From contig JAIXMG010000004.1 in the NCBI GenBank assembly GCA_025201345.1, positions 1,302,001 to 1,366,000 on the forward strand: a stretch of DNA of 64,000 nucleotides, in the 5' to 3' direction. This DNA comes from Thamnidium elegans. Lineage: Eukaryota; Mucoromycota; Mucoromycetes; Mucorales; Mucoraceae. The position numbers and the translations under genes were made by a program. Of the stretch, positions 3,376 through 60,840 are shown in pieces. The number at the start of each line of letters is the position of its first letter. Within the stretch, counting starts at the first letter, position 1. The notes under the pieces were generated by a model. It saw nothing but the letters and a program-made list of their open reading frames with translations. It was not told the DNA's origin and did no database searches.

Positions 3376-4798
3376 AAAAAAATTATTAGATACGGAGAGA
3401 TTTAACCCTTACACCCTCTTTTATATACATATATATATATCATATTATAGTTTAATAAATAGTTTCGAATCAGGTATTAGATTCTAGCAAAATGGGTAAC
3501 AGTCGTATATTGTATTATTGGATTATATCACTAAACCCCAAATATTCAGGTACAGCACGTTAAACGCATCGCGTATTTGTTTATATGTAAGCGGCATCGA
3601 AATAATAAAAAAGTTTTAGGTGCTGAACCCTTAACATAAACCAAAGTATTTACGGTATAAACACATGTATTTTTTTTTAAAAAAAAAAGAGAGAAAGCGT
3701 CTAGTTTTATCTAGGCGTATTGTCCGTATACTTGGTACTTGTTTTAATCCTACGCTCTATTGGTCTATTATTTTTCTGAATAGTTATTATTCTTCAAACA
3801 CTAAAACCAATTTTTTTGGATCGAGATTTTACGTAGTTGCACACTAATAAAGTATACACACGTAGCTTTTCGAAGGTTCTATTACTTTATTTATAGTTTA
3901 CACTAATCTCTTTAAAAAAAAAGAGGGAGGACTAGGATAGAGTACATCGAATGTTTTTGTTGGGCTGTGAAAAAAAAAAGCTTCAATAACAATATATATA
4001 TATATATATACAACACACAATATTTTAGATAGATAGATACTTGTTGTTACTAATTTGACAAATCTTTAACAAATAAACCCCTACTTTTTTAAGAGTCAAA
4101 ATGACTAATCGATCTGTTTCTTATAATGGAAAGACTGAGAGTTTATCTTGTCACTCAAAAATTTGCGTTTTGACCGCACTAACCACCACTCGTGTAGATT
4201 TTTAGGCGAGAATAATATAAAAAACACGCCACATTCCTTTGTAGGATTTTTGTTTACTTTTATTTTTTTACAATGCCAATTTTTTTTTTTTCGTATTGTA
4301 TCTTTTTTTTTAAAAAAAAAATCATGTACAACGAATAACAACAACAACAACAACAACAAAAAGAGTAAAAATAGAGGAGAACCTGATAATTTATGATGAC
4401 CATCACTAAAAAAAAAACTAAATATTTAAACATTTCGGAAGCAGTGAACTTGTTTTTTTTTTATAATAGAAAAAAAAAAGGATGAATAGTTACACTGAAC
4501 AACGTGACCCAGTTTCTTTTTAATCTAGTTCACTGATCTCTCTCAAAAACTTCGTTTCAGACTTACTAAACACATGTTTTTTTTTGTAGCGATGACAAAG
4601 AAACTGCTGCAGTATGAGAATGAAGAAGACAGTTTTTTAATCTGTGAAATACTAAAAAAAAATGCTTCAGATAATCACAGCACTTTTTTTTTTATCTCGA
4701 TTTTTCTCGAAAAGGACATAATACCTTCAAAGAACTATTATACTCTCGAAAAAAAACAAACAAAAAAAAAAGAACATAAACCTCACCATTTATATATA

Positions 4799-4829
<31 letters not shown>

Positions 4830-5603
4830 TAGATTTAGTAATAGCCCGTATGTATGTAATAACTAAGCTTTTTTTTTTTTTTTTTTTTTTTTCCAAGTTT
4901 CATATGCTGCGAGTTATGTTAACATAAAAAAAGCGTGTTTTTATTATCTTTGTGTTATACATGATGAAGAAAAAAGACATTTTTAGTCTAGCTTTTTAGG
5001 CTAAACTTATTATAGTCTTTCCTTTGGTTCTGTACATGGGATAAGAGAAAAAAAAGAAAAATCCCAACAAACAAAGCATCGAAACAGAAAGCAGATCCTC
5101 TCTCTGCACACATAAAAAAAAACGCGTAACAAACAACCGTGTTTTTTTTAGAACGAAAAGAACGTGTTTAAAACAACTTAGCCCATATTATATGTCATTA
5201 TCAAATATACAGTACCTACGATGATTTCATTCTAAATTGATTTTTTTTTGTTAGCTTCTTAAAAAAAAAAAGGGACCTTGTATTTAAAATATGTAAACAA
5301 GATTTTTTTATATATATCAAAAGCCAAATTAATACATATTATAAATTACATAAAAGTTTATTGTTTTTTTTTACAGAAAACTTTAAAAGGGGCATAAAAA
5401 AAAAGAGATTAATAAAAATATATATATAAAAAAAAAGAAAGGTATATAAAGAAACCTGTGTGTGTTGTATGTGTGTGTGATTAAGGTTTTTTTTTTTTTT
5501 TTTTTTTTTTGGAACTGTAGAATTAAAAGAATGATATATAAAAAAAAAGGAGAGAGGATACTATGTAAAAATAAATATAGGTGTCATAATTAATAAACGA
5601 ATG

Positions 5604-29304: not shown

Positions 29305-29369
29305 TAGAAATAGGAAAACGGAATACTAGTTAAAAAAGCAAGTTGTACAGTTTTATCTGATGACTTCTA

Positions 29370-29430
29370 CACACCCAGAGAGAAACTTCCAAAAGAAGAA
29401 ACAAGCTGGGCCTGAATGAGAAAATTGAAG
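29370..29430 (-). ncRNA. Candidate Fanzor omega-RNA scaffold / element right end, copy A
   Basis: A block of about 55-60 bp downstream of the copy A stop is strongly similar to 45912-45973 after copy B. Its last bases, read on the minus strand, are TTTGGAAGTTTCTCTCTGGG then TGTG; beyond 29370 similarity ends abruptly. CCCAG near its start can pair with CTGGG near its end. In TnpB/Fanzor loci the guide-RNA scaffold occupies exactly this 3' position, with the guide in the flank. Expression and function are inference. Confidence 0.4.
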
Positions 29431-31478
29431 ACAAGTGTTGGTTAGTTAATTTTTTTTTCTAATAAATGACAATACCCGTGTATTAAAAAATCAAAGCGTT
29501 AACTTTGGAGGGTTGTTTACTTTCGAGAAAAGAGCTGGGGGCGTTTTCCTATCTCCCTTAAATTTAGTAATACTTTTTTAAAGTTTAAGTTGGCAGTTTG
29601 GTCTCGGTTCTATAGCTTTCTTTTGCTTTCGTCAATGCATACGGTAATTTTGCATATAATAATTTGTAAATATTACTATTATAAATTTTAATTATCCATC
29701 ACTATTACTATTTTGTCTAAGTAATCCATGGAAAGCAATTGTTGACATCTTCGCTCGTTTGAAAGGTCGAGGGTTAGGAACTGTCTTAAAGGTTTCCAAA
29801 ACATGTTCACATCTCGGACAGAAAGACGAAGCTTTGTATTCATTGACAAGGTATACGGTAAAACCATTTTTTTTTTCAACATAGCAATTAAGCCTTTGTT
29901 TTTAATAGGTTCGTGAAACTTGGTATTAGGGGCAGACAAGTCTCCAAAAACCAAGATAGCATCTTGACTGAATTTATCTCTTAAACCGTCGACCAATTTA
30001 TTATCATTCTGATCGTAAAAAAGTTTACTGGAAAACTTCAATTTTCGAAAAGACAAAAGTTGAAAGTTCTCTAAGGCCGTACTTATCTTCTGTACATAGT
30101 TATCTTGTTGCGCCGACTCGAAAACTTTACTTTCCTGTTGGTCTTCCGATCCTTTGGTAATGGTTGTTGAAGCATTATTTGTACGTAATTGTAGTAAACT
30201 TCACGTTTAAAAGAAAGATCGTCTGATTCACGCTCCGGTTGTAGAAAAAAACCATGAAAAGTCTCCCATAATAGAGATTACACTTTTCATCGAAGCGAAA
30301 ATCAAAAGAGGAGCCAGGGAAATATACTTCTGTTGGCTCCCATAATAACCATACAAAGTGTTGCTTACCGTTGCTCTTGTTTTGGCATAACGCGTAAACT
30401 TTTCCAAGTTTACTGATTTTGGTTCAGTTCCCGAAAGGGCCGCTTCAGCTTCTTTGACGATGGCAGGTTGAGTACTTTTTCGTAAGATACGAAAGTGTGG
30501 AACGTCTGGAGCGGTGGTTCTTTGTATATATAAATGACTCTCTGTGTTCAGCAGCACTGGTCTCTTTTGTACAAAACATAATATCGCGCCTACTGGGATC
30601 TATTAGTACACATTTACTTTCATTACTTTTCAATTCAGCTTGGCTTAATTCTTCAATGTGCTTCGTTTCACTATCATCCACCTTCGTTTTCACATTGCGT
30701 TTTGACAGCTTTCGGCTTGTATCGAAATTTTGCTTGATTACTGAAATGCCAACACCATCCGTTTCTAGAGCTCCATGGAACTGAACAGTCTTCTGAAATC
30801 CTTGGTACTTAAACGTCTTTTTTTAAGGTCTACTGCATTGCCCCATATCTCAGATAGGCATCCTGCTTTCGGTAATGATTTGCTCTTAAGAATACGACAA
30901 TGAACTATTTGTCTATCAAGTGTCATGTAGCAGGGGTTAAAAGTGGTACGTAATGAAAAACAAGAGAATAATTTAATCTCTTCAGCTTCAGACAGTTCGG
31001 CCAATTTGAAGAAGGATTCAAAATGGTTTTCTGGACTAGCCATAACGTCTAAGTAGAACGAGTTCTTTTTAAATGAGTATTTTTTTGGGCAACCTGAGAT
31101 AAAAGAGTTTAATTTTCTTCTTGACTGATTATCCAAAAGACCAACTTCAGGCATCTCTTTTCTAGAGACAGCCGACTTCATCTGGTTACAAAACATATAG
31201 ACTCGATTTCGAATAACTTCTTTAATATCTTCCTCGCTAGATTCGTTTGCTTGCATTTCTTCGCGAAGCTCTTCCTTATATTTCTTAAACGCGGAAACTG
31301 CTTACATGCGTCAGAACCAAATCCGTAACGGATTATTATTGTTATGAAACGTATCTATTGCTGTGTTGCTCTAATTTAGTAGCTTTTTTTTATTAAACCA
31401 ATATCTGAGTATTCCCAAATCAATCTTCCCACATCCATGTAACATAAAATTCCTAAGAAGGAAGGAAAAAAATCTTTT
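29370..31478 (-). pseudogene. Fanzor (eukaryotic TnpB-like nuclease) relic, copy A, longest
   Basis: Fanzors are eukaryotic relatives of the RNA-guided nuclease TnpB. Reading on the minus strand, fragments occur in the order of a Fanzor: 31256-30765 (N-terminal region), then after a frameshift ETDGVGISV and the RuvC-I-like CVLIDPSRRDIMF (near 30600). SVNLEKFTRYAKT..YGYYG follows, then RKLKFSSKLFYDQNDNKL, ILVFGDLSAPNTKFHEPIKNKG and MLKKK. A one-base slip in the poly(A) near 29865 hides the zinc ribbon NEYKASSFCPRCEHVLETF (Cys pair at 29808-29821). Farther on come CKITVC, RKL-stop-NRDQTANLNF (RuvC-III, 29601-29609) and a stop at 29517. At least one frameshift near 30765, the poly(A) slip and a Trp-to-stop change make it non-functional. 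The 5' end of similarity to copy B is near 31478. Confidence 0.8.
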
Positions 31479-31650
31479 GGGGTGTATATGACGTTTCTTT
31501 TTTGCATTAACTTTTTTTGCGGGCTGTGTGCACTCAAAAAAGTTAATAAATCATTTCATTATCCGCCCTTGCTGCTGTGAGTTTGTATTTGTTTTCCCCC
31601 CCTTTATTCTTTTACTCTCTCTCTCTCTCTCCCTTTCTGTATTTGGTGTC

Positions 31651-44771: not shown

Positions 44772-44934
44772 AATCCCTTGTGTCATACTATTAATAATAC
44801 TTTATATATATATATATATATATACACGTTGTGGCCAAGGATGATAGACTTGTCTTAAAAAAGAAAGTTTTTTAGATTATGTGCTAATTATTATACTAAA
44901 CTTGGGTCACTTTTAAAATTCAGCAGCTTATTTT

Positions 44935-45973
44935 GAAAAAATCCTTTTTCTTTCTTAGGAATTTTATGCTACATGGATGTGAAAAGATTGATTTGGGGTC
45001 CATTGGGAATACTCAGATATCAAAATATTGAAGATATAATAAATTTTGTTATTGCTTAAAATACGGTTTTTATTGATATGATAAAAATAAAGCTACTAAA
45101 TTAGAGCAATATAACAATAGATACGTTTCATAGCAATAATAATCCGTTACAAGGGGAATAAATTACTTACCCGGCCATTGATAGGCAGAAAACTGTTTCC
45201 GAAAAGCTACAGGCTTCTGATACAGTAAAACACTAGCCGGAAGTCCATATGCCGCCGATAGACGAGAACTGTTACCAGAAAACTACAGTAACTATGTAAC
45301 AAACGATTTATACAGGCTTAAAGTAACACCGTACTAAAGACAACAAAGTAATAAAATAAATCCATGTTTTAGTTCTTATTCTAGGAGATTGGTCCGCCCC
45401 GAATACCAAATTTAAGAACCAACAAGAAACAAAGGATTAATAAAGATGTTGAAAAAGAACGGAATCGCTGTATACCTGATCAACGAGTTTAGAACGTCTT
45501 CTATGTGTACAATTTGTGAAAACAAATTAGAGAAATATCAAAGTTGTAACAAACCCTCGTCCATATAAAAGGCAGAAGAGTCCAAATCTGATATGTCATG
45601 GGCTGTAGAGGTAAGTTAAAGTAATTAAATTAATTATTGGTAATTGATGCAACGCTAGAGATACAAACCACGCCTGTCTCGAAGGAAGAAAGATGAGATT
45701 ATGAAATCGTGACTTGGCCGCAACTCTTAATTTTCTTAAAATATCACAAAGCTTGAGAAATACCGGTGAGCGTCCTGCCGCTTTCCGCAGAAATAATTAA
45801 AAAAAAAACAATCCGTTGAAGTTAACGCTTCTATATTTTACTATCGGGTATCATCATTTTATATTGACATTTTATTATGTAAAGAGATAAAGGGTAAACT
45901 AAACAACAATTATTTTCAATTTCCTCATCCAGGCCTAGGCTTTTCTTCTTTTGGAAGTTTCTCTCTGGGTGTG
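44935..45973 (+). pseudogene. Fanzor relic, copy B (internally deleted)
   Basis: The 5' segment 44935-45165 is clearly similar to the minus strand at 31478-31250 (copy A), sharing for example TTAGGAATTTTATG and GCTACTAAATTAGAGCAA. Most of the middle is missing or unrecognisable. From 45370 the C-terminal half is readable: GDWSAPNTKF, then stops, LKKNGIAVYLINEFRTSSMC, TICENKLEKY (Cys pair 45506-45517) and HGL-stop-R. A GTAAG intron comes next, then CNARDTNHAC, RKMRL-stop-NRDLAATLNF (RuvC-III Asp at 45711-45713), and LRNTGERPAAFRRNN before the stop. Several stops and frame changes show it is dead, but the RuvC-III block NRDLAATLNF is intact. Confidence 0.78.
45912..45973 (+). ncRNA. Candidate Fanzor omega-RNA scaffold / element right end, copy B
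   Basis: Nearly the same as 29430-29370: shared TCTTCTTTTGGAAGTTTCTC and CTGGGTGTG, with few differences upstream (CATCCAGGCCTAGGC here, CATTCAGGCCCAGC in copy A). Similarity stops after 45973. CCAG near the start can pair with CTGG near the end in both copies. The functional assignment is inference. Confidence 0.4.
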
Positions 45974-47855
45974 ATAATAAAATCTATCATACATTTTTTA
46001 TAATAAATAAAATCCTAGAAATAAAAGCGGGGTAATTCGTTTATAAAGATCCTGAGCTGTAAAAATCCACTGCTTTAGAATCTTCAGAACCTAAAATTAT
46101 AGTGCGTGAATTAAAAAAAAAAGCCAAGTGAAAAAGAAGTTAAAATGACTTCAAATAGAGATGATAACATTAAAAATCGTGTCTTAAATACGCTATGCAG
46201 TTTTCGTGCATTTAACTCTTTTTTAAACTTTTATTTGCCGTCATAAAGTATGAGGTTTTTTTTTTTACCATAAAAACTATTTTAGAGTATTATTTTTTTT
46301 TCTCACTTGTAAAACTGTAATGGGTCTAGTCGAGGGACTCGAAAAATACTATCGGTTAAATATTATACGCAAATGAAACATAGCATTCGATAAGTAAACA
46401 TGTATATAGTATGTATTATCTGAAACAGTATACGCCCCGAACAGGCGGGAAACAAATATATTCACGCGTATACATCAAAACTATGGGTATAGTAGTATTT
46501 TTGTCTAGTTTATTCGAATACAATAAGGTGTATCTTTGTACTACGTCTTTTTTTTTTCAAGACAACATCTCTAACCTTTTTAGTATACAATACTGACCGT
46601 GCCAACGTGCAGCTTTTTGGCTTTGAAAGATACATTTTTTGTCGTAAAATAATGGTTCTAAAATACTTTTAGCCTTACTTGCTACAGATATATGGTGCAT
46701 TTGATAAGAAATATTGAGTATATCCGATTACTTGATATGATCTCTTACGTACTACCATAAAATAATTGGGGAACATTCAGTTTGTAAGAGCTCCCTTGTA
46801 ACATAGTATGTCTTTATACTAACATATTTTCCTACTTGAAGTTTTACCTAATCTAACCAGCCAAACACAAAAAAATTAAATAAAATGCTCTTAAAAAATT
46901 GTATTGTAACCTAAATTTTAGATAATTTATAATAATGTATTACCCACAATTACTACAATTTGGTGAGAAAAAAAACTAAATAGCAGCATTACGTATAACT
47001 CAGGAAAACAAACAATAACATGGTACTACTTGCACTAGATATATATATGCAGGAGAAACGTTTTTACTTGGCTTTTTTTTTTTAACTAAAAAATATGTAT
47101 TTGTTACGCAAAAAAAAAAATGTACATGGGTTCGTTAAAAAGCTTTCAAAATAAAACAAAATGGATAATAATGATGGGAGACATGCAATGCATGAGTTTT
47201 GATGATCGTGTAACGTTAAACTTCTTCATTTAGGTATACGACTATTATTGTTATTATTTTTAGATGATCTTTGTACGTCTGTACCATTTAAGAACTAAAG
47301 AAAAGAAATATTTTAGTAACAATAAAACAAATTTTATTTTTCGTATTTCGCATTTTTTTTTCGATACAGTATCAACTCATCAAAGATATATAGACGCACA
47401 AATGATATTATTAGTCGTAAACATTTTTGGATGTAAAGATTATTCACCATTTTGCTTTTATTTAACATTCCAATTATTTGGTAATAGCGGAGTCGGTGTT
47501 TTGATGTCATTTCATAAACTACCCGCGAAATATATGTATTGTTTGTATCGGTTTATGTCATAAAAAAAATAAAATAAAAAAAACAAATTACATATTGTAC
47601 TGTTTAAAACTTTCACACACAGGAACATTACTTAATTATATGGGATGAAGAGGGGTTTTTATTATATATACGATTTTTATCTAAAAGCAGAAAATAAATA
47701 ATAAATAAATTATTCTCAGAATGTTTGTGTGTACAAGTTATGGTTTTGTGTAAATGAGAATAAAAAAAAAAAAAAAAAAAAAAAAGTAGCATTTACGAAA
47801 TAATAAGAAATAAAATAAAATTAAGATTTACATAAAATGCTTGTATATACGTATA
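45974..47855. other. 1.9 kb AT-rich intergenic; no supported gene
   Basis: A 99-codon frame at 47264-47563 and a 61-codon frame at 46411 lack domain motifs, are Phe/Tyr-rich and have no supporting splice structure. Poly(A) at 47763-47785. Confidence 0.5.
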
Positions 47856-52000: not shown

Positions 52001-54747
52001 GACCATTTGTACTGTCAAAATATGAGCAATACGTCTCTCAATATCAATTGATCTACTCCGAATAAGCCTATCCTCTCCCCTCACTAATTCAATTTAGTAT
52101 TATTTTTATTCCTGCGGCCTTAAACTTTTAAGTCCATCTAGATGGCTTTACTTTATATATAATTTTGCACTTCCCTCTATTTGGTCGTGTAACTTTTAAA
52201 ATCAAATAAAACTGATGGGGCTTTTGTCACTTCTGTCAAAATTTTTGAAAGCATTTGTAGACAGTATTTTTCTTTTATGTATAACATGACTCTTTCTTTA
52301 TTAAAATTAATATATATCGCTTTTGTCAATTATAAAATTTTGGACCCTATTAGTACGCCGTATGACAAACGGAAAAAAGTTTAATTTAGTATAGAGTTTT
52401 AAATCTGTGTTTTTTCCTGCTTCATGTGCAAAGCATGTGTATTACCTCAAGCGGTCCACATGTAGAATCGTAAATATTATAAGTCAGCAAAAAAAAAAAA
52501 AACTTAGAAACAGTGAGATCAAAATACTTTTTTTTTACTCTATCCCATTCGCGAATTACGAAATATAATTAACAACTTTGAAATCAATAAACTTGAGCGC
52601 AGCAAGTAATATGTCAATTGATTCTGCTACTGGTCATACAAAAAAAGGGACTACTATTGTAATGTTTGAACGTGTTCAGGAAAAATCTTTGGTTTGTGTA
52701 ACCGCTACTAGTTAACAATCAACAAGCACAGACACTCTGCCATACTCATTGGGCTGGTGCATAACCTTAATATAAGTGCGCTTTTGTATTACTGGCCAAT
52801 AAAAGTCAGTAGTAGATCATCCCATCAATCCGATCGGTATTGTGACAAATCATATTCTTTTTTTATAAATCCAAATTTTTTCTCATCAGATAATTAAAAG
52901 TCATATCAAATGAGGGATGTGCAGTGAAAAAAAAAATGAAAATAAAGATGTATGTCTTTTTAATTGAAAAGGGTCATAAAGTACTATTGGGTACGAAGAG
53001 AGTTTTCTTATTTACGGTATTATGGTTGGAGAATCCAAATTGGTTTGGTCAGTATATTGATGGCAAATCTTTATGGCGATACAAACGACTTGGTTCGGGA
53101 TCAGTCAAAAACGAAACGCCAATACTGTAGCCAGACGGCTTCGAGGATTACAAATAATCCTTAATAGGAAGTGCTACACGAATTACTTACAAATTTCCAT
53201 CTTTTTACTGTACAGTGCCGATAGGTTCAAATGGCGGATTTCCTTGGCCGAATAGCGTATATTATTTTTACTTTAATGCCTTGAATAGATAGAAACAGAA
53301 CGTTTGCTATTACTTTTCATGATACATCATACGCGGATCAACATGCTTCAGCAATTGTTGCGTGGATGTCTTCTTTAACGGATTTTTTTTAATACGACAG
53401 TCGAAAATTTGAAATCCGCTATTTGAACTGTAAACATTTTGAAAAAAGTGTGCTCTTTACTAAGCTGATATCCTGGTGATCGTAAAAAGTAAAATACCTA
53501 ACACTCCCTAATATCCGACTGTTGTACAAACGTTACATACTTTCAATCTATTAGTTTCACATTCTTGCAAAGATAATAAAAAGTAGTTAAACTATCTAAG
53601 GATGGCAGTTATTTCGTTCGAGTCATAAACTAATAAGGTTCAATTAAAAATCAATGGCTTAGCCGGGTATACATAGGTTCTTTTATTTGAAAACGAGAAC
53701 AGCTCCCCATCTCCAGTATTTGGCGAAACTGGTAAAACTGCTCCCTCAAGCTACATTCTTAAAAAGAGTAAAAATCTTTAGTTACAAGGATCCTTAATCG
53801 AAAGCTAACATATCTGAAAAGGCTTACATGATGAGTACAATCTTAGGAAGGAAATATGGCAAATAAAACTATTTGATATACGCTGTCGCTTAGAATTGAT
53901 AAATACTTTTTCCCAAAGCATTAGATCTGACGATTAAAAAAAAGCTTTTTCACTTATTTTAATAGTTCTAAGATTTGATACACCTCCTTTAAATACTTTC
54001 GGGTTTATTGTTTTACTTGGCTATATTTCTTACAAGGGATTCGTTTATAAAGTTCATTTTACGCAACCCTTTTTCCGTTTCTCCCAAATTACAATTATTA
54101 TGATTTTGTATTTTAATAAATTATGGCTTTTGGGCCTATGATGTCGGCTTATATATATATATACTGCATTGCAGTTAAATTCTTTCTTACGGAGATGATC
54201 AAATGAAACTTTGCTTACAATCTAGTTTTTTTTAAAAAAAATCTGACTCTGAATAATAAAGCGAGTTGTAGAATTTTCAAAAAAAAATCTATATCGCAAA
54301 GCGTACACAAATCCTCATTTGAGTTATTATCTCTAGACTTAGCTAGTTGTACTATAGAAGGAGGTCGTATAATCTTATGACTCTATGGTCATTCGTTGCC
54401 TAAAAATATTAAAAACGTGAAACAAGAAAATTTAGGTTTCTTGCATCACTTTGGCACTATATATGATTTCAAAAATTTGCTTCGTAATACAGTAGCAGCT
54501 CTATTTAAGGGTAGCCGAAATCTGGAAGAAATCCAATCTTAAATTGAACAGTGGACGGGATAATTACACAATATCCAGCAATAAAAATACTGCACAAGTA
54601 TTAAATGTACTGTATTGATCGAGTCAGTTATAGTAATAAACACATTTCTAACGAACAAGCGAGGTGAAAGCGAAAGAGTAGAAAGAGCAATTATGCTAAA
54701 GAAAAAAGACCAGCTTGAAAATCATTGCTAAGAAAAAGTCTCATTGG
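49056..54747. other. 5.7 kb gene-poor, decayed-repeat region
   Basis: No intact gene. Small frames at 49475, 52924, 52964 and 53073 show no convincing family. Around 51735-51830 a pattern of Cys, then PEH, then Cys (CLLYQNPEHMFITC) resembles the zinc-knuckle-like segment near the C-terminus of LINE reverse transcriptases; this is tentative. At 54487-54518 there is a pogo-like terminal sequence. (TA)n and poly(A) runs are frequent. Confidence 0.5.
54487..54518. mobile_element. Pogo-like terminal-sequence fragment
   Basis: TACAGTAGCAGCTCTATTTA followed by AGGGTAGCC. It is similar to 59772-59800 (TACAGTAGCGGCTCTATCTA). The CAGTAGxxxCTCTATxTAAGGGT form is like the terminal repeats of Tc1/pogo-type DNA transposons; no transposase is nearby. 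Confidence 0.3.
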
Positions 54748-55018
54748 AATAAATCATATAAAATAATTAATTATGTGTCATTTTAATACATAGCTCTGTA
54801 TTATTTTAATTGATAACAATAAAGTTTTTAATAGAATTTAATGTTTGAGCTTTCGTAGAATAATATATACAGTATATTTTTCTGTGCAATAGCTTGGGTA
54901 GGTTCAGGAATTATTTAAATTATTATAATCCATCATTGTTCGTCCGTTATCCTTTTTAAAACATTCGTTTTTATACGAATATTCAGGCATCACTTCTAAA
55001 AAAGTAATTTTATTAATG
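54748..55018. repeat. 271-bp dispersed repeat, copy 1
   Basis: Matches 60090-60360 base for base except about two substitutions, same orientation. No coding potential seen. Probably a recent duplicate or non-autonomous element; no clear terminal inverted repeats. Confidence 0.85.
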
Positions 55019-55184
55019 TTTAAAATAAGGTGTTTTCTGTGTATAATTAAAAGTCAGGAAATGATTCTTTTGCCCAAGTTACTTAATGAAAGTTAGTCAT
55101 CAAGTCATTGTCTTTAACACCAAATATTGAAAACCGCTTGTTGTTATATATTTTTCTCGATTTTTCCTACTTTTTTTGTGGTCG

Positions 55185-59842: not shown

Positions 59843-60089
59843 CACCTTCTTCTGTCCTCCGCTTTAATACCACTATTACCACTATTCGATTTCCGGGTGA
59901 AATACAATTTAACAAAACTACTAAATATATAAAAAGGAAGTCTTCAACTATTTTCGAGATGTGTCTATTTAATTTACGAGGAAATTATATGAAAGATTCT
60001 AGTCTTCAAGAATGTATTATTTACCAATATTATTCATAAACAAAAAAAGAAAAAGAATCGAAATGATAGAGAGAGAGAGAGTATAATGA

Positions 60090-60360
60090 AATAAATCATA
60101 TAAAATAATTAATTATGTGTCATTTTAATACATAGCTCTGTATTATTTTAATTGATAACAATAAAGTTTTTAATAGAATTTAATGTTTGAGCTTTCGTAG
60201 AATAATATATACAGTATATTTTTCTGTGCAATAGCTTGGGTAGGTTCAGGAATTATTTAAATTATTATAATCCATCATTGTTCGTCCGTTATCCTTTTTA
60301 AAACATTCGTTTTTATACGAACATTCAGGCATCACTTCTAAAAAAGTAATTTTATTAGTG
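60090..60360. repeat. 271-bp dispersed repeat, copy 2
   Basis: Near-identical to 54748-55018. It lies directly before the 62-bp repeat and Fanzor copy C. Confidence 0.85.
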
Positions 60361-60361
60361 T

Positions 60362-60423
60362 GACAAAGCAAAGTAATAGACCAGAAGAAAGTCTTGGATA
60401 AAGTTTCGAACAGAACAGAACCA
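60362..60423 (+). repeat. Short dispersed repeat related to 57052-57113
   Basis: See the partner entry. It abuts the Fanzor-like coding sequence at its 3' end. Confidence 0.75.
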
Positions 60424-60840
60424 ATTCATGGGAAAGGAATGAAAAAAATGTTAAGAAAAGAAGAGTTCCAAGTTTATCCACTTGATGAATACAAAACCTC
60501 GAGTATCTGCCCATCTTGTGAGTATCAGCTTGAAACTTTTAAAGAATGTATTAACCCAAGACCATATCGACGTTCAAAGAATCCTACTGTGAAGTGCCAT
60601 GGACTTTTAAGGTAAAACTATATATTACTATTATATGAATCAAAAAGCCTATATATAACCTGTGTTAATGTTTTAGATGCAAAAATCGAAAATGTTTAGA
60701 TTCCAAGGTGCTTACAGAAGAGGATACAAAGTTTAGATTATGGAATAGAGACTTGGAGCGATAAACTTTTTTCAGGCACTTTTTTAAAGTATCTGTTCAA
60801 TAATTTATGCTAATTGAACCTTTGTGAACAAAAATTATTG
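60424..60840 (+). pseudogene. Fanzor relic, copy C (C-terminal part only)
   Basis: Starts abruptly inside the protein at GKGMKKMLRKEEFQVYPLDE, continues YKTSSICPSCEYQLETF, INPRPYRRSKNPTVKCHGLL, and is spliced (60612 GTAAAA .. 60676 TTTTAG) to CKNRKCLDSKVLTEEDTK and RLWNRDL. The Cys-x2-Cys and Cys-x4-Cys zinc-ribbon pairs and the RLWNRD RuvC-III motif are intact. Directly after NRDL a frame slip replaces the expected AATLNF; the other frame reads AINFFRHFFK. No RuvC-I or upstream domains precede it, so it is a 5'-truncated fragment. Confidence 0.72.

Follow-up and report, generated by a model that had tools for sequence, protein, structure and literature searches.

Fanzor1 remnants at the locus

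A 64,000-nt stretch of contig JAIXMG010000004.1 of Thamnidium elegans (hereafter the window) holds the remains of three Fanzor-related copies, A, B and C. Relatives were sought in the 34.1-Mb genome of this Mucorales mould and carry L numbers below. Our literature search found no paper linking Thamnidium elegans with Fanzor.

29368..29369: TA adjoining the right end of A, target duplication
29370..31484, minus strand: copy A, decayed Fanzor1 element, 2115 bp
29370..29445, minus strand: right-end block of A, candidate omega-RNA scaffold
29517..29519, minus strand: stop codon TAA of the Fanzor frame of A (RDQTANLNF...FSRK*)
31400..31484, minus strand: left-end block of A, starting CACCCCAAAAG
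31485..31486: TA adjoining the left end of A
44911..45974, plus strand: copy B, Fanzor1 element with an internal deletion, junction near 45373
45798..45800, plus strand: stop codon TAA of the Fanzor frame of B
45898..45974, plus strand: right-end block of B, candidate omega-RNA scaffold
45975..45976: TA adjoining the right end of B
60418..60756, plus strand: copy C, a truncated piece from another Fanzor subfamily that stops short of its right end

The protein of the A/B elements is a decayed Fanzor1. A 215-aa open stretch of one relative (L009), compared with PDB sequences by phmmer, matches two solved Fanzor1 proteins: PpFz1 of Parasitella (E 1.9e-72), its nearest solved relative, and SpuFz1 (E 7.9e-15). 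In tblastn, separate pieces of A and B hit Fanzor-like proteins of Rhizopus and others. In Pfam, a Cas12f1-like TNB domain in L009 stays below the cut-off (19 vs 26.3 bits), and the other nine pieces give no Fanzor or TnpB domain. Searching the genome with the 215-aa query gives 57 matches, and many of them contain internal stops. The RuvC/zinc-ribbon motif, excerpted from Bao & Jurka as D...[TS][TS]XX-C4-RD (PMC3627910), is not intact in copy A: its coding sequence is split over several frames, DPS stands where L012 has DPG, and Phe takes the place of the third zinc-ribbon Cys of L009, with RD kept; L009 retains SSFCPRC...TCHGLL. Copy A is homologous to Fanzor1 but not functional here. Unlike PpFz1, the Thamnidium copies are broken: all five A/B-type copies with listed frames (A, L009, L012, L020 and L026) are disrupted and B is internally deleted, and the right-end block is therefore probably a relic in this strain.

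Copy C represents a second Fanzor subfamily. A copy on C27 (L038) has a frame of 506 aa that runs off the end of the L038 stretch, and of 550 aa in the genome search; when it is aligned with eight relatives, 5/9 end at TCTCTAAT and 2/9 at TCTCTATT, and AACCAACA, a word also present in the A/B block, occurs in 6/9. Two folds of these second-subfamily ends have z scores of -0.01 and -0.77, not better than shuffles. The window also contains a 275-bp direct repeat with 99% identity (54745-55019 and 60087-60361), the last 62 bases of which occur at many genomic places.

A shared right end

Where does the similarity between the copies stop? The sequence-only reading of the window placed the boundary at 29370 (minus strand, A) and 45973 (plus strand, B), and this proves exact; its estimate of ~60 bp between stop codons and boundary does not, as the stops lie 147 nt (A) and 173 nt (B) before the end. 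The two right-end blocks are 87% identical over 78 columns. A search with the last 25 nt (at most three mismatches) returns 19 matches in the 34.1-Mb genome and the reversed pattern returns 0, so the shared right end is not due to chance.

The analysis takes in 23 right-end loci (A, B, L009-L027, L036 and L037); partial matches at C2:229695 and C31:263168 and a B-like C30 copy lie outside this set. Across many genomic copies a common right end is followed by unrelated flanks: identity among 12 copies is 0.20-0.28 over +4..+30 and 0.21-0.33 over +31..+60, the bin of the first three flanking bases being too short to yield a value. Apart from A/TA, no similarity extends past 29370/45973 in the other copies. 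The smallest relic, L036 (C2:69600-70000), is a ~50-bp sequence in which the left end is joined directly to the right-end block.

TA dinucleotides and an inverted left end

TA follows 19 of the 23 right ends (p 2.6e-16, assuming one fixed position; an optional A roughly doubles the per-copy chance of TA and leaves the conclusion unchanged). It stands directly after GGGTGTG, or a variant of it, in four copies (A, L010, L012 and L025) and is preceded by one extra A in 15 of the 19; because these 15 copies have this A in common, their end lies 1 nt further. Two right ends without TA are readable (L020 and L036), and two are too decayed to read (L016 and L024).

The left end was found as TCACCCCCAAGG directly preceded by TA; inverted, it reads CTGGGTGTGA followed by TA, and the inverted right end reads TATCACACCCAGAG. 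Sixteen left-end loci were collected (A, B, L009, L011, L019, L023, L027 and L028-L036), with a weak match at C29:152816 kept outside. Read with the pattern TCAC-CCCC-AAGG followed by a T run, 12 of the 16 are legible to the last base, the exceptions being B, L009, L023 and L029. TA precedes seven of these 12 (A, L011, L019, L027, L030, L032 and L036); the other flanks are CA (L028, L031 and L034), TT (L033) and AA (L035). A precedes the TA in 6/7 cases (background 0.35; p 0.009), giving ATA in 6/12 readable left flanks. Four copies have TA at both ends: A, L011, L019 and L027, with lengths of 2115, 1892, 2523 and 2044 bp. The 2115 bp of copy A follow from locating its right end and inverted left end, although the register of its left TA is ambiguous by 2 nt because the left flank reads ...GTCATATA. 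The extreme left terminus of B is not recognisable; at 44901-44910, CTTGGGTCAC resembles, by eye, the terminal repeat turned round in place.

Does the TA belong to the element or to the target? The optional terminal base is missing from both ends of copy A, where TA is nevertheless retained, and this assigns TA to the target: the TA at the right end is a target duplication. TA target duplication and terminal inverted repeats (TIRs), the combination that marks Tc1/mariner elements, are thus both found, although the two ends match over only ~8-10 nt, and no long inverted repeats were seen with the two right-end motifs searched. A Helitron end was considered and rejected: the right end lacks CTRR, the motif named for Helitrons in the excerpted survey (PMC3627910), and shows the TA pattern instead.

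The element end at the block is established by the common right end of many copies, their unrelated flanks, the inverted left end and the TA on both sides. In Thamnidium, the block forms the right-hand end of a decayed Fanzor-carrying transposon family, and the sequence-only reading was right to see an element end here.

No paralogous empty sites were recovered for A, L011, L019 or L027, all eight matches being the copies' own flanks. A C28 left end (L035, L047) survives as a relic: ~330 nt of the 5' part remain, with no Fanzor match, and no right end lies within ~2.1 kb downstream. Neither an autonomous partner with these TIRs nor a transposase attributable to the family was found in the genome, which has at least 165 DDE_3 matches (150 of 406 candidates scored). 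One Fanzor element, L019, contains at 4600-5280 a mariner-like DDE_3 transposase remnant, probably a nested insertion.

Preservation of the block

The comparison of preservation takes in seven A-type and five B-type copies, 12 of the 23 with a right end. Between types, identity is 0.89-0.93 over the last 33 nt; upstream it is 0.73-0.74 (-75..-34), 0.41 (-111..-76) and 0.70 (-147..-112), in three coding bins from -400 to -148 it is 0.37-0.52, a range lowered by the B-type deletions, and past the element end it is 0.20-0.24. Within types the picture is flatter: A-type copies gain little (0.93-0.98 in the last 33 nt vs 0.78-0.90 in coding sequence, with 0.72-0.81 over -111..-34) and B-type copies nothing (0.88-0.92 vs 0.88-0.90 in the last 150 nt of coding sequence). 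The statement that the block is better preserved than the coding parts therefore holds between A-type and B-type copies but not clearly within either type.

One might suppose that the block is simply an ancestral tail, a 3' UTR or terminator, that has yet to decay since a recent common ancestor, and that its end reflects a chance truncation. The copies are indeed paralogues with common ancestry, but many of them stop at one base with TA adjoining and unrelated flanks, and divergence between the two types is far greater in coding sequence than in the last 33 nt. The TA/TIR pattern refutes chance truncation, and we regard this explanation as hardly credible.

Fold and covariation

The last ~50 nt are predicted to fold into an outer stem around an inner hairpin, with the 3' arm formed by the element terminus itself. 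In copy A, the parts are as follows.

29370..29378, minus strand: outer stem, 3' arm (CUGGGU.UG), includes the terminal inverted repeat
29386..29398, minus strand: inner hairpin CUUCU UUU GGAAG
29406..29414, minus strand: outer stem, 5' arm, pairing 1 (CA.GCCCAG)
29411-29418, minus strand: outer stem, 5' arm, pairing 2, CAUUCAGG

The inner hairpin is constant: its four pairs, CUUC(U)...GGAAG, form in 18/18 aligned copies, and L025 has U-A changed to C-G. The CCAG/CTGG pairing singled out by the sequence-only reading is present but not unique, CTGGG having two possible 5' partners. With pairing 1 (CA.GCCCAGA), inner hairpin included, 94.1% of 222 lettered cells are paired; with pairing 2 (CAUUCAGG), 97.5% of 197; slid controls stay at or below 65%. 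Of 500 shuffles, 0/500 (pairing 1) and 4/500 (pairing 2) attain the covariation score, although relatedness can inflate it. Double-changed cells number two per pairing and are equalled by 17/500 and 13/500 shuffles. Compensatory double changes do occur in the stem, then, but they are thin: all come from a single copy, L025, which is otherwise damaged in pairing 1. In the RNAalifold consensus, four outer pairs remain besides the inner hairpin, at only -3.3 kcal/mol.

Sequences were also folded singly. Ten 53-nt right ends, chosen from the 18 aligned with copies damaged in the 5' arm excluded, have z scores of -0.84 to -4.45, negative in 10/10; five 76-nt right ends, the damaged L014 included, range from -0.70 to -2.59, negative in 5/5. 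The 5' arm is partly or wholly missing in L014, L026 and L027. No Rfam family matches the window at gathering scores. The fold signal of the right ends lends the scaffold moderate support.

Could the block have been kept only as DNA, a terminal or subterminal repeat bound by a transposase, with no guide RNA at all? The left end, too, is conserved across A and B types without being a scaffold, the end-only relic L036 persists, and covariation is weak and derives from one copy. Against this, the right-end block resembles the left end for no more than ~10 nt, has its last bases in a stem when folded, and sits where excerpted reports place the Fanzor1 omega-RNA (PMC11423790, PMC10432273). We consider a DNA-only role unlikely. 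That the block encodes a guide-RNA scaffold, as the sequence-only reading had proposed, is likely from PpFz1 homology, from position and from a modest fold signal that includes the last bases; covariation adds to it weakly. A conserved 3' block that ends at the element boundary and gives way to a variable flank, the arrangement expected of OMEGA loci, is what the copies show. The scaffold reading accounts best for the established element end, and the block most likely encoded the scaffold of an RNA that guided the Fanzor DNA-cutting enzyme.

Relation to known Fanzor systems

Published systems are compared here as excerpts of the cited papers describe them. PpFz1 of Parasitella parasitica (PDB 9cf0-9cf3), of the same protein subfamily and the same order, Mucorales, as the Thamnidium copies, is a proven RNA-guided nuclease with a 75-nt omega-RNA, a 7-bp SL1, a 4-bp SL2 and the TAM ATN (PMC11423790). 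Its omega-RNA is short, as in our reading, and its TAM would fit the Thamnidium ATA flanks. Compared by description, SL1 is followed by SL2 in PpFz1, whereas the Thamnidium fold is predicted to nest an inner hairpin in an outer stem. SpuFz1 of Spizellomyces punctatus has a 75-nt scaffold that reaches the right end and is followed by 14-15 nt of flank, and leaves ghosts without the gene (PMC10432273). It resembles the Thamnidium copies as a Fanzor1 whose element measures ~2.1 kb, has inverted ends and leaves gene-less relics, and in having the scaffold run to the right end with the guide in the flank, both of which are predicted in Thamnidium; its inverted repeats measure 30 nt vs ~8-10 nt in the decayed Thamnidium element (PMC10432273). 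Fanzor1 reRNAs are predicted to hold the TIR and target duplication in their scaffold (PMC10711439). Fanzor1 also occurs in mariner elements with TA (Bao & Jurka 2013, PMC3627910); these Tc/mariner elements share with ours TA at both ends, short TIRs and Fanzor-only versions. By contrast, the Mucorales families ROr-4, PBl-3, MCi-4, MCi-2 and MCi-5 have 6-, 9- or 11/12-bp duplications, vs TA in Thamnidium (PMC3627910). The Thamnidium block is an expected part of an already known kind of element.

A putative guide and its target

Taken together, the block is probably the right end of a short-TIR, TA-inserting Fanzor1 transposon that encodes an omega-RNA; the shared end, the TA, the inverted left end, the Fanzor1 homology and the foldability are observed directly, and transcription, binding, cleavage, transposase type and guide length are inferred. 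The bases next to the block had been taken as the guide; with TA assigned to the target, the predicted guide begins after it, from 29367 downwards in A and from 45977 upwards in B.

29348..29367, minus strand: predicted guide of A, in the flank beyond TA, of assumed length (PMC11423790, PMC10432273 and the flank sequence)
45977..45996, plus strand: predicted guide of B, in the flank beyond TA, of assumed length (inference)

The intact ancestor would have been a short-TIR, TA-inserting DNA transposon with Tc1/mariner-like ends, carrying a PpFz1-type Fanzor1 gene. In a live element, a transcript running through the block into the flank would yield the omega-RNA, composed of a ~50-75 nt scaffold extending to the transposon's last bases, the TA and a 15-20 nt guide from the flank. 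Because insertion is mostly at ATA, the empty donor site would read ATA-flank, which fits a TAM, ATN in PpFz1, plus a guide match; the nuclease could thus cut emptied sites, and such cutting would favour restoration of the element.

TA-GAAG follows the right end in 4/19 TA ends: A (29364-29367), L019, L021 and L026. In draws from the TA contexts of the window, a count of 4/18, as it stands before L037 is added, is reached by some GC-containing word with a frequency of 0.0003 and by any word at all with a frequency of 0.0082. This excess may reflect a target preference or be guide-related. A bolder idea, which we rate as quite improbable, is that the target TA is used doubly, both as the duplication left by the transposase and as the closing bases of an ATN TAM, with the terminal repeat lying within the last omega-RNA stem. 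If so, each excision would leave a cuttable TAM-plus-guide site, and the TA-GAAG excess (4/19) would mark guide-directed, not random, insertion.

PpFz1-type Fanzors of a Mucorales fungus can now be placed in TA-inserting elements with defined ends, and these ends make the scaffold boundary, the start of the guide and the TAM predictable without RNA data. After comparison with relatives, the ~20 copies may be used for testing how the scaffold evolves.
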